Part shown: piece after piece, positions 288-59,665 of the stretch
How the letters are laid out: each line of letters starts with the position of its first letter
How positions within the stretch are numbered: the first letter of the stretch is position 1
Assembly (NCBI GenBank): GCA_003220495.1
Contig: QHSP01000025.1
Location: forward strand, 1 to 64,000
Reading direction: 5' to 3'
From: Candidatus Rokuibacteriota bacterium
Lineage (GTDB): Bacteria; Methylomirabilota; Methylomirabilia; Rokubacteriales; CSP1-6
Length of the DNA stretch: 64,000 nt
Position numbers and translations under genes: made by a program
The notes under the pieces: model-generated
Seen by the model: the letters and a program-made list of their open reading frames with translations, nothing else
Database searches by the model: none
What the model was told of the DNA's origin: nothing

Positions 288-980
288 ATGCCGCTCCCCT
301 ACTATGTGAGCCCCGAGCAGATGATGAAGGACAAGGCGGAGTATGCCCGCAAGGGCATCTCGCGCGGCCGGTCCCTCGTCACCCTCGAGTACGGCGACGG
401 CATTCTGCTGGTCGCCGAGAACCCGTCCACGCTCCTACACAAGATCTCCGAGATCTACGACCGGATCGCCTTCGCCGGCGTCGGCAAGTACAACGAGTTC
501 GAAAATCTCCGTATCGCGGGCATCCGCCACGCGGACGTCAAGGGCTATTCGTACAGTCGGGGGGACGTGACGGCCAAGGCGCTGGCCAACGCGTACTCGC
601 AGGCCCTCGGCAACATCTTCACGCAGGACATCAAGCCCTTCGAGGTCGAGGTGCTGGTGGCCGAGGTCGGTGACGCCAACGGCGCGCGAAACGAGATCTA
701 TCACATCCTCTACGACGGCACGATCGAGGACGAGCGGAACTACGCGGCCATGGGCGGCCAGTCCGACGAGATCCGACGCTTTCTGAAAGATCACCACAAG
801 GAAGGCATGCCGCTCGAAGAGGCGCTGCAGCTCGGCGTCCGCGCCCTCACGGTGACGCAGAACAAGACCTTGACCGAGCGGGATCTGGAGGTCGCCGTGC
901 TCGACCGGACCAAGGCGCGGCGCAAGTTCCGGAGGATCCCGCTGGAGGCGCTGGGGCAACTCCTGGGCACAGCCCGGTAA
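288..980 (+). CDS. prcA: Proteasome alpha subunit PrcA
   Basis: This 230-residue protein has the N-terminal [26 protein letters not shown] segment that forms the gated alpha-ring entrance, followed by the Ntn-hydrolase fold ([39 protein letters not shown]). Alpha subunits build the outer rings of the 20S core and are not proteolytic. The length is typical for bacterial PrcA. It starts 2 bases after prcB and is followed by pafA after 29 bases, so the three genes probably form one operon of the Pup-proteasome system. The C-terminus is a short basic tail. Confidence 0.95.
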
Positions 981-1009
981 GCCGTGTTACGCTTGGGCAG
1001 GACGGGCCC

Positions 1010-2365
1010 ATGAAGCGGCGCATCTTCGGTATCGAGAACGAGTACGGTCTCACCTGCACCCTCAACGGCCAACGCCGTCTGTCACCCGACAACGTCGCCC
1101 GGTACCTGTTCGAGAAGGTCATCCCCGGCGCCCGCAACGCGAACGTGTTCTTGGAAAATGGCGCTCGGCTCTATCTCGACACCGGGTTCCACCCGGAGTA
1201 CGCGACCCCCGAGTGCGACGACGTCGCCGAGCTGGTCATCCACGACAAGGCGGGCGAACGCATCGTCGAGGATCTCCTGCACCAGGCCGAGAAGCGTCTG
1301 CGTGAAGATGGGATCTCCGGCAACATCCTGCTCTTCAAGAACAACACCGATTCCGCCGGGAATTCGTACGGCTGCCACGAGAACTACCTCGTCTCGCGCG
1401 ACGTCTCGTTCCAGCGGCTCGCCGAGGCGCTGATCCCGTTCTTCGTGACCCGCCAGATCTTTGCGGGTGCCGGCAAGGTGCTCCAGACGCCGCGCGGCTT
1501 CCACTACTGCCTGTCGCAGCGCGCGCAGCACATCTGCCAGGAGATCTCCGGCGCGACGACCTCGTCGCGTTCGATCATCAACACCCGCGACGAGCCGCAC
1601 GCCGACGCCGAACGCTATCGACGTCTTCATGTCATCGTTGGCGACTCCAACATGTCGGAAGTCGCCACCTACTTGAAGATCGGCACCACCGCACTCGTGC
1701 TCGATATGATCGAGGACGGTTTTTTCGACCGCGATTATTCGCTGCAGTCGCCGGTGCAGGCGATCCGGGATATCTCGCACGACCCGACTTTGAGAGAGGC
1801 GGTCAAGCTGAAGGACGGTCGCTCGATCACCGCCCTCCAGATGCAGCTCGAGTACCTCGAGTACGCCACCCGGTACGTCGCCTCGATCAACGCCGACGCG
1901 ACGACCAAGGACGTCCTCGCCCGCTGGACCGACGTGCTCACCAAGCTCGAGTCCGATCCCTTGCAGCTCGGCCGCGAGCTCGACTGGGTCATCAAGCGCC
2001 AGCTGATCGACAACTTCATGAACCGCCACCGGCTGTCCTGGCGGGATCCGAAGGTGTCGCTGCTCGACCTCCAGTACCACGACATCCGTCCCGACAAAGG
2101 CGTCTACTACCGCATGATCGCCAACGATCACGTGGACCGGATCACCGACGACGAGACCATCGAGCAGGCCAAGCACGTCCCGCCGCAGACCACGCGGGCG
2201 CGCCTCCGGGGCGAGTTCATCCGGCAGGCGAACCTGAAGGGCAAGGACTACCGCGTCGACTGGGTCTACCTGAAGCTCAACGACCCGGAGCGCGAGACGA
2301 TCCTCTGCAAGGATCCCTTCCAGTCCCACGACGAGCGGGTCGAGCGGCTCATCCGCTCGTTCTAG
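1010..2365 (+). CDS. pafA: Pup--protein ligase PafA
   Basis: This 451-residue member of the carboxylate-amine ligase family attaches the C-terminal Glu of Pup to substrate lysines, marking them for the proteasome. The N-terminus [14 protein letters not shown] carries the metal- and ATP-binding glutamates. [31 protein letters not shown] and [13 protein letters not shown] are signature blocks shared by PafA and Dop. The extended loop typical of Dop is not evident near the N-terminus and the overall match favours PafA. pup, the ARC/Mpa ATPase and dop are not in the window and may lie upstream of base 1. No strong Shine-Dalgarno precedes the ATG. Confidence 0.93.
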
Positions 2366-2604: not shown

Positions 2605-3072
2605 ATGTTCAGTAACCAGAAGGGTGCCCAGAAGCCGGGGTCTCTGCCGGCGTCGGAGAACGGGCAGCCCGCCGCCCCGGCGATCCCGCTGCTCTCGGTG
2701 GTCGGCGAGCGCGCGCGCATGGAGGGCAAGTTCGACATCGCGGACTCGATCCAGGTCGAGTGCGAGGTCGGCGGCGAGATGAACGTCGGCGGCAAGCTCG
2801 TCATCGGCGAGAAGGGCGTGGTCAACGCGAACGTCCAGACGGTCGATGCGATCATCATGGGTAGCTACCAGGGCAACATGATCGCGACCGGCAACGTCGA
2901 GATCACCGACTCCGGCCGTGTCACCGGTAACATCACGACCGATTCGCTGGTGATCTCGAAGGGCGGCTTCTTCAACGGCAATGTCACGAAGATGAACGAG
3001 CAGGCCAATGGCCAGCGGCCGATCTACCTGATGGACGACATGCGGAGCGCGCAGCTCAGCGGCCAGAGGTAG
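2605..3072 (+). CDS. Bactofilin (polymer-forming cytoskeletal protein)
   Basis: This 155-residue protein has a disordered Pro/Gly-rich N-terminus (about 1-30) and a central bactofilin (DUF583) beta-helix. The repeats read like GKFDIADSIQVECEVGGEM, GKLVIGEKGVVNANV and GNVEITDSGRVTGNI. Bactofilins self-assemble into filaments that scaffold cell-envelope or division enzymes. AAGGAG precedes the ATG at good spacing. The next gene, 23 bases downstream, is a second bactofilin, so the two probably form a co-transcribed pair that could co-polymerise. The C-terminus is a short polar tail (residues 135-155). Confidence 0.88.
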   Translation: MFSNQKGAQKPGSLPASENGQPAAPAIPLLSVVGERARMEGKFDIADSIQVECEVGGEMNVGGKLVIGEKGVVNANVQTVDAIIMGSYQGNMIATGNVEITDSGRVTGNITTDSLVISKGGFFNGNVTKMNEQANGQRPIYLMDDMRSAQLSGQR

Positions 3073-3095
3073 GCGGCCCCTCGGGGGCGAACGTC

Positions 3096-3506
3096 ATGCG
3101 GTGGCGCAAGAGGAAGGAACCGACCCGAAGCGGCAGCGACCTCACGGCCTTCATCGACGAAGGGTCCGAGATCGAGGGCAAGTACACGTTCAACGGGACC
3201 GTGATGCTGAACGGCAAGTTCAGCGGCGAGATCGTCTCCAGCGACAGCCTGATCATCGGCGAGAAGGGCATCGTCAACGCCACGGTCCGCGCCGGGATCG
3301 TCCTGGTCAACGGTGAGGTGATCGGCAACGTCTTCGCCACCGAGCGCGTCGAGCTCAGGGGCACCGCCCGTGTCTACGGCGACGTCGAGGCTCCGGTCAT
3401 CGTCGTCGAAGAAGGCGTGCACTTCGAAGGCCACTGCAAGAACACGAAAGGCGGGTCGGCGGACGTCGCGTCCGCCGACCGCGACGGAATCAGCCTGAAG
3501 CGATAG
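3096..3506 (+). CDS. Bactofilin, second paralogue
   Basis: This 136-residue protein has a basic N-terminus (MRWRKRKEPTR) that could contact membrane lipid or DNA, then the bactofilin beta-helix core (FIDEGSEIEGKYTFNGTVMLNGKFSGEI, DSLIIGEKGIVNATV, RVELRGTARVYGDV). It is closely related to the upstream gene, although the N-terminus differs. The gene ends 6 bases before the convergent hutH stop. The cytoskeletal role is known for the family; the specific process is not visible from the sequence. Confidence 0.88.
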   Translation: MRWRKRKEPTRSGSDLTAFIDEGSEIEGKYTFNGTVMLNGKFSGEIVSSDSLIIGEKGIVNATVRAGIVLVNGEVIGNVFATERVELRGTARVYGDVEAPVIVVEEGVHFEGHCKNTKGGSADVASADRDGISLKR

Positions 3507-6382: not shown

Positions 6383-7983
6383 TCCGGGGCCAGCCAGACG
6401 GTGTCGAGCTGGTTGTTGAGGAAATGGCTCGGCGTGATCGTCCAGCCCCGGAGCCGCGCGTTGTGCGGGACGATGCGGTGCCACTGGAAGGTGAAGATGT
6501 AGTGCGCCTCATCGTCGAGCAGCCGCTTCTCGAACTCTCTGATCGCGCGGCGGCGCTCTTCCCGATCGGTCGCGCGGCTCTGACGCTGGTAGAGCTCGTC
6601 GAGCGCGCGATCGGTGTAGCGGCTGTAGTTCACGTGACTGACCTCCGCCGACTGGAATTTGAACAGCGCGAGGTCCGGCTCGACGATGTAGCTGCAGTGG
6701 AAATCGGCGGCCACCTCGAAGTTGCCGCCGCGGATCTCGCTGTAGAGCGTCGCGAGCTCGAGCGTCTCCACCTTGACGTTGAGCCCGATCTGGCGCCACT
6801 GGTCGACGAGCCACACGCCGAGCGGCTCGTACGGGTCCCTGATCGCCCGATTGCGGATCGTGAACGAGAACCCCTCGGGCACGTCCGCTTCCTTCAGCAG
6901 GCGCCGCGCCTCGGCCCGCGCGGCCGTGACGTCGCGGCCGTAACCGGCCAGCTTCTCGAGCTCGGCCGATGTGGCGGCGAACGGTGTGCCGACCCCCTGC
7001 ACGCCGACGATCTCCTTGAAGATCGAGATTTTCGCGAGCGCGGCCGCGCCCTGGTATCGATCGAGCGCCAGGCTCAGCGCGCGCCGCACTCGACGGTCGT
7101 CGAAGGGCTTTCGCTCGTGGTTGATGGCGAGCGGGTTCCCGCACTCCCAGGGGCTCTCCTGCACGCGGATCCGGCTGCCGAGCGCCTGCACGAGGCCGTC
7201 GCGGTCGGGGGGCGCGAAGCCCCGGAATTGGATCATCGCCCGCTGTCCGCGGATCGCCGCGATCTGGGCCGAGGTGTCACGGACGAAGAGCGCGCGATAG
7301 CCGTCCAGATAGGGCTTGCCGCGTTCCCAGTACACCGGGTTCTTGCGGCCGGTCCAGTGCGATCCCTTCACGTACTCGTCGAAGACAAAGGGCCCGCTGC
7401 CCATGACATTCTTCTCGTACCAGCGGATGTCGCGGGCGAGGACGTCGGCCTTGTAGATCCAGTTGAACGGCGACGCGAGCGAGGCGAGGAACGACGCAGC
7501 GGGCCACTTGAGCCGGAACACGACGGTGGACGCATCGGGCGCGTCGATCGCCTCGACGACGACGTACTCGCCCCTGCGATTCGAGGCCACGCCGGCGGGC
7601 GGGAAGATGATCTTGTCGTACGAGGCCTTGACGTCGCGCGCGGTGAGCTCGCTCCCGTCGTGGAATTTCACCCCTCGACGGATCTTGAACGTCCACGTAC
7701 GCCCGTTCGCCCCGCTCGACCACGATTCGGCGAGATCCCCCACGATCCTGGTGCCGGACGGATCGGCGGGATCGACCCTCAGCACGGTGCTGTAGTGCGG
7801 CGCCGCGGGATGGATCAGCGCGAAGCTCTCCTCGCGGTGGGCGTCGAAGGACGGCGGTTCCGCCGGAACGACGAACACCAGCTCGCCGCCATGGCGCGGC
7901 GCTTCCTGCGCGGCGCCGATCGCGACGAGCCCCACCAGGAGGAGATCGGCCAGGACGAGCGCGGCGGCGATCCGCCGCGTCAT
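6379..7983 (-). CDS. ABC transporter substrate-binding protein, peptide/opine family (SBP_bac_5)
   Basis: This 534-residue exported protein has a signal peptide ([26 protein letters not shown]). The mature part starts with the family hallmark [18 protein letters not shown], then [34 protein letters not shown] and [11 protein letters not shown]. Such proteins deliver peptides, opines or related amides to Dpp/Opp-type permeases. No permease or ATPase of that type is nearby. The ATG overlaps the hutU stop by 4 bases and the stop overlaps the amidohydrolase start, so it belongs to the hut operon. A histidine-like or histidine-containing ligand is inferred from context only. Confidence 0.88.
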
Positions 7984-9650
7984 GCGGTGATCCCCGGCAG
8001 ATCGAGCGAGTGACGGCGCGCCGCCGCGACCGCCTCGGGGTAGCCCGCGTCGGCGTGGCGCATGATGCCCGTGCCCGGATCGGTGGTGAGCACGCGCTCG
8101 AGCCGGCGGGCCGCGTCCGGCGTGCCGTCGGCGACGACGACCATGCCGGCGTGGATCGAATAGCCGATGCCCACGCCGCCGCCGTGGTGCACCGACACCC
8201 ACGTGGCGCCGGACGCCGTGTTGAGCAACGCGTTGAGCACGGGCCAGTCGGCGATCGCGTCGGAGCCGTCGCGCATCGACTCGGTCTCGCGGTTGGGCGA
8301 AGCGACCGAGCCCGAATCGAGGTGATCGCGGCCGATGACGATCGGGGCTTTGACGACACCCCGCGCGACGAGCTCGTTGAAGATCTTTCCGGCCCTGGCC
8401 CGATCGCCGTAGCCGAGCCAGCAGATCCGCGCGGGCAGCCCCTGGAAGCCGACGCGCTCGCGCGCGAGGTGGAGCCAGCGCACGAGCGACTCGTTCTCGG
8501 GCATCGCGTCCATCAGCGCGCGGTCGGTCGCGTAGATGTCCTCCGGATCGCCCGAGAGCGCCACCCAGCGAAACGGCCCCTGCCCCTCACAGAAGAGCGG
8601 CCGGATGAACTCGGGAACGAACCCGGGATAGCTGAAGTCGGAGACGCCGGCGTTCTCGGCCTCCCGCCGGAAGTTGTTGCCGTAGTCGAAGAGGATGGCG
8701 CCGGCCCGCTGGAACTCGAGCATCGCCCGCATCTGCGCGGCGATCGACTCGTACGCGCGCGTGCGATAGGCCTCGGGATCCCGAGCGCGCAGAGCCCGGG
8801 CCTCGTCGACCGTGAGCTCGGCCGGGATGTAGCCGGTGATCATGTCGTGAGCCGAGGTCTGGTCGGTCACGACGTCGAAACGCGTTCCCCGGCGGGCGAG
8901 CTCGGGATGCACCGCGGCCGCATTGCCGTGGACGGCGATCGAGAGCGGCTCGCGGCGCGCGCGCGCCTCGTCGGCCCACCGGAGCGCTTCGTCGAGCGAC
9001 GACGTCGCCCGGTCGACGTAACGAAGCCGCAGCCGCCGCTCGATACGCTCGTGGTCGACCTCGACGAAGAGGCCGACGCCGCCGTTCAGGGTGACGGCGA
9101 GCGGCTGCGCGCCCCCCATGCCCCCGAGACCAGCCGACAGCACCAGCCGTCCGGCCAGCGAGCCGCCGAAGTGCTTCCGCGCGCAAGCGCCGAAGGTCTC
9201 GTAGGTCCCCTGAAGGATGCCCTGCGTGCCGATGTAAATCCAGGAGCCCGCCGTCATCTGGCCGTACATGGTGAGGCCCATCGCCTCGTAGCGCCTGAAG
9301 TGCTCCCAGTCGCCCCACTCCGGCACGAGGAGCGAGTTGGCGATGAGCACGCGTGGCGCGTCCGTATGGGTCTTGAACACACCGACGGGCTTTCCCGACT
9401 GGACTAGCAGAGTCTCGTCGCCCTCGAGGCGCCGGAGCGTGCGGACGATCGTGTGGTATGCCTGCCAGCTCCTGGCCGCCTTGCCGGATCCGCCGTAGAC
9501 GACCAGGTCCTCCCATCGCTCAGCGACGTCGGGGTCGAGATTGTTCATGAGCATCCGGAGCGCCGCCTCCTGCGGCCAGCCCTTGCAGGAGAGCTCGGTG
9601 CCGCGCGGCGCGCGGACGGGCGCGGCGGGGCGTTCGGCGAGCGTGGTCAT
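7980..9650 (-). CDS. hutU: Urocanate hydratase HutU
   Basis: This 556-residue enzyme converts urocanate to imidazolonepropionate using tightly bound NAD+. Signature blocks are [57 protein letters not shown] (nucleotide site) and [14 protein letters not shown]. It is the first gene of the operon hutU/SBP/amidohydrolase/hutH. A GTG lies one codon upstream of the chosen ATG and cannot be excluded. No Shine-Dalgarno is visible; instead TAGAGT lies 8 bases upstream of the ATG, suggesting a leaderless or near-leaderless message. Confidence 0.95.
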
Positions 9651-9658
9651 CACGCGTC

Positions 9659-9997: not shown

Positions 9998-10231
9998 TTA
10001 CTTCACCGGGCGCCTCACCAGGGCCCAGCCCGATGCCTGGAGTTCTCGCGTTATGTCGCGGTGGCGCCGCTCGACGTGGCGTCGCTCGGCCGGTGGTGGC
10101 CTCTGGGTCCGGCGCCGTTCGCTTCCTCGTCGATCGAGGACCACGTCCCGGCCCTCGTCGGCATATACGTGCTTGAGATAGAAGTATTGTTTTGGCGCGG
10201 TACGCGACACGATGAATACAAGGTCTGCCAT
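9998..10231 (-). CDS. Small Arg-rich 'DRR' domain protein (unrecognised family)
   Basis: This 77-residue protein starts at an ATG with a strong GGAGGTGA ribosome site 7 bases upstream, so it is probably real. It begins with a short hydrophobic strand (ADLVFIVSR), a Tyr-rich segment (QYFYLKHVY), then VVLDRRGSERRR, ERRHVERRHRDI and GWALVRR. The same order occurs at residues 14-84 of the RsbT-like fusion encoded at 10613-11335 and at the N-terminus of the protein at 59153-59665. I do not recognise a characterised function. The alternating DRR/ERR clusters could bind nucleic acid, nucleotide or acidic protein partners; this is speculation. Confidence 0.7.
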   Translation of the reverse strand: MADLVFIVSRTAPKQYFYLKHVYADEGRDVVLDRRGSERRRTQRPPPAERRHVERRHRDITRELQASGWALVRRPVK

Positions 10232-10612: not shown

Positions 10613-11335
10613 CTAGCGGTTATTCCGCCACTTCCTGACCGCGACCGTCGTGCCCCCGCCCAGCCGCGACGCGATGTGGAGCTCGTCCATGAGCCGCCGG
10701 ACGCCGGGCAGCCCGAGGCCGAGGCCCCCGGACGTCGAGAACCGCTCCTGGAGCGCCCGCTCGATGTCCGCGATGCCCGGGCCTTCGTCGATCACGATCA
10801 CCTCGACCCCGCGCGCCCGCTCGATTTCGATCGTTCGGAGAATGACCTCCCCGCGCGTCGCGTAGGCGATGAGGTTCCGCACGAGCTCGGACACGGCCGC
10901 CGCGACGCCCGCGGAATCGGTGGGTGACAAGCCGACGCTGACCGCGAGCTCGCGCCCTCGGTCGCGAGCGGACAGGGCGTCGGTCTCGTTGGCGACCGGC
11001 AGCAACACCTCGCTCCGGACGCGCGCGGGCTCCATCCCCGGACCGAGTGACCATCGCGTCGAATCGGACAAGGGCTCGGCGTCGCGTCGCACCAGCGCCC
11101 AGCCGGAGGTCCGAAGATCAATGGTGATGTCGCGCTGGCGTCGGTCGCGACTCCGTCTCTCCATCGTCGCCCGGTAGTCGGCCCGACGCCGCTCGCCGCT
11201 CCGCCGGTCGAGGACCACTTCCATGGTCGCGCTGACGAAATTACGGGTGAGCGACGTGTATTTCGCGAGCTCCTCGCGTGCCACGACGGCAAGGAGGGAC
11301 CCGGGGAGACCACCCGGACGCGGACTATCCTCCAT
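10613..11335 (-). CDS. DRR domain fused to an RsbT-like serine-protein kinase / anti-sigma ATPase
   Basis: This 240-residue protein joins two modules. Residues about 14-84 carry the Arg-rich DRR domain (VVLDRRSGERRR, ERRSRDRRQRDI, GWALVRR). Residues about 108-238 form a GHKL/HATPase_c domain of the RsbT type: N-box SELVRNLIAYA (149-159), G1 box DEGPGI (183-188), G2 GGLGLGL (203-209) and a final GGGTTVAVRKW. RsbT kinases phosphorylate STAS-domain proteins in partner-switching stress control. No STAS antagonist, phosphatase or sigma factor is adjacent. The ATG lies within an 18-bp tandem duplication and lacks a clear ribosome site. The kinase call is firm; the role of the DRR module is unknown. 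Confidence 0.85.
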   Translation of the reverse strand: MEDSPRPGGLPGSLLAVVAREELAKYTSLTRNFVSATMEVVLDRRSGERRRADYRATMERRSRDRRQRDITIDLRTSGWALVRRDAEPLSDSTRWSLGPGMEPARVRSEVLLPVANETDALSARDRGRELAVSVGLSPTDSAGVAAAVSELVRNLIAYATRGEVILRTIEIERARGVEVIVIDEGPGIADIERALQERFSTSGGLGLGLPGVRRLMDELHIASRLGGGTTVAVRKWRNNR

Positions 11336-11768: not shown

Positions 11769-12722
11769 GTGCCGCCGCTCTTCCTGGCGGGCCTCCTCTA
11801 TCTCGGCGCCGGGGTATTTCTCGGCCTGGTGCGCCGGTTCTGGCGCCGCCGTCCAGCGACCGGCCGACCGATGACCTCACGCGATCGCTGGATCCTGGCG
11901 GGCATCGTCCTCGCGGGCGGCGTGCTCGCCCCGCCGCTGCTCCTCTGGGGCCTCGAGCGAAGCTCGGCCACGACGACGGCGCTTCTGCTCAATCTCGAGG
12001 TCGTCTTCACCGTCCTGCTCGCCGGTATCGTCTTCAACGAGCATCTGGGTGCGCGGATCGCCGTGGCGGCGATCGTCATGGCTGCCGGCGGGGTCGTGCT
12101 GGGCTGGACGCCGGGCGACCCGGCGATCGCGGCCGGCGCCGCGGCGGTCACCGGGGCGTGTCTGCTCTGGGCGCTCGACAACAACCTGACGCGCCTCATC
12201 GCGGAGGCCGATCCGCTCCTGATCGTGGAGGTCAAGGGCCTCGTCGCCGGGACCGTCAACGTCGTGCTGGCGCTCGCGAGTGGCCAGTCCCCGCCGTCGC
12301 CGGGGACGATCGCCTTCGGCCTGGCCCTCGGCGCCGTGAGCTACGGGACGAGCCTCGTCCTGTTCATCCTCGCCATACGCGAGCTCGGCGCGGCGCGCGC
12401 CGGCGCCTATTTCGCGACGGCGCCGTTCTTCGGAGCCGCCGGAGGCCTCGTCTTGCTCGGCGAGTCGCCGACCGCCGGCCTCCTTGGCGCGGCGGCGCTC
12501 ATGGCCCTGGCGACGGGGCTCCTGGTCTACGAGCGCCACTTGCACCGCCACCACCACCCGATGGGCACGCACGTTCACGTGCACGTCCACGACGAGCACC
12601 ACCAGCACGCGCACGAGGGCTGGGAAGGCCCCGAGCCCCACAGCCATTCGCACCCGACCGGCCCGGTGGAGCACGAGCACCCGCACACTCCCGACATCCA
12701 CCACGATCACGGCCACGGTTGA
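11769..12722 (+). CDS. DMT/EamA-family transporter with His-rich tail
   Basis: This 317-residue hydrophobic protein shows the two EamA repeats of the drug/metabolite transporter superfamily (GLERSSATTTALLLNLEVVFTVLLA; IRELGAARAGAYFATAPFFGA). After the last membrane helix comes a cytosolic tail of about 60 residues, residues 258-317, packed with histidines. Such tails occur in this subfamily and may bind metal. The GTG at 11769 is the first standard start codon. However, the same frame is open upstream and encodes a good first helix (about 11697-11768, AILNALIAALAFGLSAPLAK) without ATG, GTG or TTG. The true start is therefore probably further upstream at a rare codon, or a base is missing. Confidence 0.85.
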   Translation: MPPLFLAGLLYLGAGVFLGLVRRFWRRRPATGRPMTSRDRWILAGIVLAGGVLAPPLLLWGLERSSATTTALLLNLEVVFTVLLAGIVFNEHLGARIAVAAIVMAAGGVVLGWTPGDPAIAAGAAAVTGACLLWALDNNLTRLIAEADPLLIVEVKGLVAGTVNVVLALASGQSPPSPGTIAFGLALGAVSYGTSLVLFILAIRELGAARAGAYFATAPFFGAAGGLVLLGESPTAGLLGAAALMALATGLLVYERHLHRHHHPMGTHVHVHVHDEHHQHAHEGWEGPEPHSHSHPTGPVEHEHPHTPDIHHDHGHG

Positions 12723-56344: not shown

Positions 56345-59131
<2,787 letters not shown>

Positions 59132-59152: not shown

Positions 59153-59665
59153 ATGCCGGCCCAGCTATTCATCGTCGCCCGTCGTCATCCCGAGCTCTAC
59201 GACTACCTGAGCGCGCGGTTCACCGACGACGCGAAGGTGGCGGTCGTCCTCGACCGTCGGCTCGCGCCGCGCCGGCGGCGGGCGCTTCCTGCGGCGGCAG
59301 AGCGTCGTCGGGTCGACCGGCGCGCACGGCCGGAGGTCGACGAGCAGCTGCGGGCGACCTCGCTCGCGATCGTGACCGCACGGACGACGGCGGCCCCACC
59401 CGCGGGGAAGGCGCCCGTGAGCGAGGCACGGCAGTGGATCGAGGCGATGCAACACGGGGTGAAAGCCGTTCGCGGCGCCCTGGACGACCACGAGCGGCTC
59501 CAGCACGAGGCCCGGGCGCTCGAGCAGGAGAACGAACGGCTCCGCGCCGAGATCGACCGCTCCTCGAGAGAGCTTGCCGAGCTCGACTCCGGCATCACCC
59601 GTGCGATCGAGCTCGTGACCGACCTCCGCTCGCGCCTGCAGAAGGAACCAGAGCGGGGCTCGTAG
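59153..59665 (+). CDS. DRR-domain protein with coiled-coil C-terminus
   Basis: About 170 residues from ATG 59153, a start that aligns with the small DRR protein. Residues 1-78 repeat the DRR pattern (AQLFIVARRHPELYDYLSARF, VAVVLDRRLAPRRRR, ERRRVDRRARPEVDEQLRATSLAIV). Residues about 100-165 are a strongly predicted coiled coil (LDDHERLQHEARALEQENERLRAEIDRSSRELAEL). The arrangement suggests a dimeric regulator or adaptor in which the DRR module meets a partner. Its closeness to uvrA may be incidental. No function is recognised. Confidence 0.75.
   Translation: MPAQLFIVARRHPELYDYLSARFTDDAKVAVVLDRRLAPRRRRALPAAAERRRVDRRARPEVDEQLRATSLAIVTARTTAAPPAGKAPVSEARQWIEAMQHGVKAVRGALDDHERLQHEARALEQENERLRAEIDRSSRELAELDSGITRAIELVTDLRSRLQKEPERGS

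Follow-up and report, generated by a model that had tools for sequence, protein, structure and literature searches.

A second, DRR-fused RsbT-type switch kinase conserved in Rokubacteria that already carry an RsbRST module

The closest described relatives of the gene reported here are the RsbT switch kinases of RsbRST(X) stressosomes, such as those of Bacillus, Listeria and Vibrio vulnificus. Signals are thought to enter the stressosome through the sensor domains of RsbR. RSTX modules with an RsbU_N-fused histidine kinase as output have already been described (PMC9237108, PMC12143880). Here, we report a conserved second RsbT, fused to the small, uncharacterised, Arg-rich DRR domain, in a Candidatus Rokuibacteriota genome that already has a stressosome. 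The gene was found in a window of 64,000 nucleotides (the whole stretch of DNA analysed; contig QHSP01000025.1). A literature search on DRR, Rokubacterial signalling and fused RsbT returned nothing relevant to a DRR-RsbT fusion.

The fusion gene and its kinase domain

The fusion gene is located at window positions 10613..11335 on the minus strand (stop codon 10613-10615) and encodes 240 residues including the DRR domain, as against about 130 residues for a single-domain RsbT. Its coding status is indicated by the open frame, by a GC content by codon position of 0.71/0.54/0.87 that is typical for coding DNA here, by Pfam HATPase_c_2 and by five orthologous copies. The DRR domain comprises residues 12-86 (11078..11302, minus; DRR HMM E 2.7e-27) and is followed by a conserved linker of residues 87-105 (11021..11077, minus; ...DSTRW...GMEPAR), in which DSTRW is identical in 5/5 orthologues and dN/dS is 0.12-0.54. 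The RsbT-type kinase domain makes up residues 106-238 (10622..11020, minus), and residues 122-235 match HATPase_c_2 above the Pfam cut-off (E 4.5e-13). The original prediction that a DRR domain is fused to an RsbT-type switch kinase is thus borne out by the concordance of open frame, HATPase_c_2, DRR HMM, tree and motifs. An assembly artefact as the source of the fusion is excluded by the DRR-linker-kinase order, which is kept in four orthologues from separate assemblies.

The fusion is flanked by hutU (7980-9653, minus) and an EamA transporter gene (11769-12722, plus), whose relation to it is not evident. No STAS, PP2C or sigma gene adjoins it among the open reading frames and Pfam matches of the locus, and a STAS gene close to the fusion is absent at all five fusion loci in the five genomes. 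Elsewhere in the window, a 20S proteasome subunit gene (Proteasome, E 7e-20) stands beside a Pup ligase gene (E 1.5e-164) at 288-2362 (plus), constituting a Pup-proteasome system of this lineage, and two adjacent bactofilin genes follow directly after the Pup ligase (2605-3503, plus).

A tree built from 31 related kinases of the phylum (outgroup split 100/100) grouped the five fused kinases in one clade (98/99), which falls within that of the Rokubacterial stressosome RsbT proteins (84/87). Since they are nested in this clade, the C-terminal domain is, by sequence, a true RsbT-type switch kinase and a duplicated RsbT. The N-box (Glu and Asn), DxGPG, STxxxLG (ST...LG.GLxG) and GT motifs were invariant across 22 aligned kinases, and the N, G1, G2 and G3 motifs were intact in the GHKL/HATPase_c_2 domain of 5/5 fusions, reading SELVRN (149-154), DEGPG (183-187), STSGGLGLG (200-208) and GTT (228-230) in the protein of the window. 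The fused kinase looks catalytically intact in these respects, and ATP-binding residues have not been lost in the homologous fusions, being conserved in 5/5. The anti-sigma kinases SpoIIAB and RsbW belong to the same GHKL superfamily, the top NCBIfam model for the fusion was SpoIIAB, and its closest solved structures were those of anti-sigma F factor. Such an identity is ruled out by scores far below the family cut-offs (52.1 bits against 135 for SpoIIAB, 15.9 against 145 for RsbW) and by the motifs and tree, which group the fusion with RsbT.

When the fusion is placed on the numbering of B. subtilis RsbT, the counterparts of R19 and R23 are R124 and R128, both Arg being invariant in the 22 aligned kinases, and the position corresponding to D92 is D or E in 5/5 fusions. 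R19 and R23 have been implicated in RsbU binding and D92 sits at the RsbU linker in a model (PMC12143880). The branch of the fused kinases is long (0.42), reflecting faster evolution than in the module RsbT copies. Ten positions that the latter conserve are altered, among them G93, beside D92, which is replaced by R in 4/5 fused kinases. The long branch and the ten changes suggest that partner specificity may have shifted. Retention of the binding residues despite rapid sequence divergence would also suit a decoy or sequestering paralogue that dampens the stress signal by competing for the RsbRS or RsbU_N sites of RsbT, and switch-kinase paralogues can act as competitors. However, a pure decoy would not need the strictly conserved catalytic and ATP-binding residues, and we consider this role improbable.

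Further lone RsbT paralogues without DRR occur in the same family (L076/L089 in G011:C16, L086 in G012:C168, L062/L103 in G034:C145), and the genome G012 holds three RsbT-type kinases. Other genera of the family harbour a separate type of cluster (L063-L069, e.g. G019:C87 and G009:C176) in which several RsbT-like kinases are arranged in tandem, one of them as part of a long protein.

Full-length fusions, 61-90% identical, were present in 5/95 genomes of the phylum, namely four of the nine genomes of the same genus and one from another genus of the family. No DRR-RsbT fusion was found beyond this Rokubacterial family, other phyla being covered by one exact-match DNA pattern scan. Pairwise dN/dS among the five fusions was below 1 across DRR, linker and kinase, mostly 0.2-0.45, with 0.24-0.43 for the kinase and 0.21-0.44 for the DRR within the genus, and higher DRR values against the distant G012 copy. 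These ratios indicate that the fusion is under purifying selection. Its neighbourhood differs between genomes, except for one setting common to G002 and G004, where the fusion stands beside a tig-clpX-like gene set (gene names assigned by eye).

The stressosome of the same genome and the small DRR neighbour

The source genome harbours a complete stressosome operon, RsbR-RsbS-RsbT-RsbX-[RsbU_N/histidine kinase]-NarL-NarL, at 11.2-16.2 kb of contig C82 (L082), and its RsbR-RsbS-RsbT-RsbX portion, with a separate RsbT of its own, spans 11.2-13.4 kb. RsbR consists of a weak RsbRD_N and a STAS domain, and the histidine kinase after RsbX has the arrangement RsbU_N-PAS-HisKA_3-HATPase, its RsbU_N being the sole one above cut-off in the genome. 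The proposed genome check for STAS antagonists and PP2C phosphatases gave four STAS genes, two of which are RsbR and RsbS, and the SpoIIE-family RsbX of the operon. The absence of partner genes asserted in the original prediction is therefore correct locally but not genome-wide. No alternative RsbS- or RsbU_N-like partner was detected elsewhere in the source genome at the thresholds used. A separate SpoIIE/STAS/anti-sigma-like set is found on contig C53.

RsbR, RsbS and RsbT in this order were identified in 4/4 other fusion genomes as well, a co-occurrence (5/5 genomes) that is confounded by shared ancestry. In none of the five genomes did the fusion gene show linkage to the stressosome operon. 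It had been proposed that the DRR domain might take the place of the stressosome as the input that controls a lone RsbT kinase and that the small DRR protein nearby could be a competitor or inhibitor. The fusion and its solitary location are real; however, the source genome has a complete stressosome with a separate RsbT, a finding that had been named beforehand as contrary to the proposal, and an RsbRST module is present in each of the other fusion genomes. DRR is therefore not replacing the stressosome, and the proposal as a whole now appears hardly probable.

The second DRR gene is indeed a neighbour of the fusion: it encodes a stand-alone protein of 77 residues at 9998..10231 (minus), is preceded by a strong GGAGGTG ribosome-binding site and begins 382 bp downstream of the kinase open reading frame on the same strand. 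The fusion DRR (residues ~12-86) is 46% identical to it. In favour of a functional pairing, simple density gives a chance of about 1% that another DRR gene would lie on the same strand no more than 400 bp away (32 copies in 5.98 Mb), and two DRR genes lie close together at some other loci too. As a specific competitor or inhibitor, however, the small protein fares poorly, being one of about 32 copies, with close paralogues elsewhere in the genome (C159 86%, C89 74%, C66 66%) and with no counterpart beside the fusion at 4/4 orthologous loci. The two proteins may nonetheless interact, whereas an inhibitor role is unsupported.

The DRR domain and its association with stressosome modules

The DRR domain was detected by HMM in 67/95 genomes of the phylum, with 1-41 copies each. 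It had no match in Pfam or NCBIfam up to E 1 and a weak match only in PHROG (E 0.03). Assignment to a known fold was rejected, as the best Foldseek hit in the PDB was KaiB (E 0.79) and those to ArsD and partial receiver domains were likewise not significant. A degenerate DNA pattern, in which part of the motif has to match exactly, was scanned across 84,980 species genomes and found true DRR in Rokubacteria only, a result that divergent DRRs could escape; a match in Eremiobacterota (L125) fails the DRR HMM and was treated as chance.

The AF2 model of DRR is a β-α-β unit, a disordered Arg-rich loop and an α-β unit. In the fusion, pLDDT was 91-96 for residues 11-40 and 93 for 71-80, falling to 52 in the loop around 51-60, and the kinase half of the full-length model was poor (mostly 33-75), as the alignment behind it comprised DRR homologues only. 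The invariant residues D33, R34, R35, R39, R50, R55 and R56 (numbering of the small protein) lie mostly in the low-confidence loop, which suggests that the Arg-rich loop binds an anion or a partner.

Other DRR fusions involve receiver domains and GAF-GAF-PAS-cyclase, TPR and MASE1-PAS-HisKA proteins, several of these domain names being read by eye from the translation and the MASE1 protein alone being scanned. In the latter (L015 1-1710, G000:C82), DRR follows HisKA where HATPase would be expected, and no HATPase domain was present within the 570 aa covered. The window contains one more DRR gene, its third (59153..59665, plus; DRR HMM, no Pfam match), which has a predicted coiled-coil-like tail and stands behind a uvrA-like open reading frame (56345-59131).

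The spread of DRR over receiver, cyclase, TPR and HisKA proteins bears on another explanation, in which the fused kinase works outside the stressosome circuit as an independent switch that DRR steers to new substrates or partners, for example DRR response regulators or histidine kinases. Such rewiring could come about through homotypic DRR docking, and the long branch, the altered conserved positions and the missing operon linkage would fit. However, the positions corresponding to the RsbU-binding Arg pair are invariant, the fusion always co-occurs with RsbRST, and the genome offered no other RsbS- or RsbU_N-like partner at the thresholds used. On balance, an independent switch seems rather unlikely.

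DRR genes are found near 8/19 RsbRST modules, as against 0.95 expected from the DRR density of each genome (Poisson p 7e-6); collapsed to genera, 4/9 were positive (p 0.0014), and within about 3 kb upstream on the same strand, four were observed and 0.1 expected, the p-values being indicative since the window sizes were picked after viewing the data. Of these four, all on the strand of rsbR, the one in G004 is directly upstream, the one in G001 is separated from rsbR by a sigma-54 activator gene, and those in G011 and G012 by a MASE1-type gene. The corresponding slot in the source genome is occupied by a CxxC protein; its N-terminal half and that of a CxxC-DRR fusion share 53% identity over 36 residues. 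At two loci (L098 7202-7492, L112 3176-3340), another kind of DRR gene immediately follows a response-regulator gene on the downstream side of the stressosome operon, and exopolysaccharide-type genes come next.

In a DRR tree, which is weak owing to the short domain, a single clade (83/99) united the fused DRRs, the four copies from upstream of stressosome modules and the small window DRR. By identity (60%), the closest match to the fused DRR in G012 is the copy upstream of that genome's own stressosome module. These relationships make it plausible that the fusion originated by joining of a DRR with an RsbT of stressosome descent.

A second kinase input and its relation to known systems

As the cell has a complete ordinary alarm, the most likely role of the fusion is to supply that circuit with a second signal. 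In its specific form, this reading has a DRR-gated second switch kinase ('RsbT2') acting in trans on the single RsbRS/RsbU_N-kinase circuit, and we would give it about an even chance; the action in trans and its biochemical steps are what we infer. In this reading, DRR is attached to a duplicated RsbT as an extra input or docking module and would bind either a ligand, which may be anionic, or a partner such as another DRR protein. The activated fusion could then bind the RsbU_N of the operon histidine kinase directly, or it could phosphorylate RsbS/RsbR so that ordinary RsbT is released; by either route the DRR signal would converge on the NarL-type regulators. More tentatively, and with the chances against it, DRR might be an undescribed signalling domain expanded in Rokubacteria, whose strictly conserved Arg loop senses an anionic ligand or docks DRR proteins and whose fusion to RsbT provides a second, kinase-borne sensory entry bypassing RsbR.

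If correct, a switch kinase with a conserved input domain of its own would constitute a second entry point into the same stressosome circuit, and the duplication of RsbT with DRR makes partner choice after duplication testable. DRR itself, with up to about 40 copies per genome, with fusions to receiver, histidine kinase, cyclase, TPR and RsbT domains and with linkage to the stressosome operon, would be a major signalling module, lacking a Pfam model, of a widespread uncultured phylum of soil and groundwater.

The operon of the source genome is of the same type as the RSTX modules with RsbU_N histidine kinases, for which the available portions of the descriptions give one RsbT per module and do not mention a DRR-fused second RsbT (PMC9237108, PMC12143880). 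The fused kinase is like stressosome RsbT in its GHKL fold family, N-box, DxGPG, STSGG and GT motifs and in the Arg pair that contacts RsbU. It differs in the added N-terminal DRR and linker, in its position outside an RsbRST operon and in being an extra copy beside a complete stressosome.
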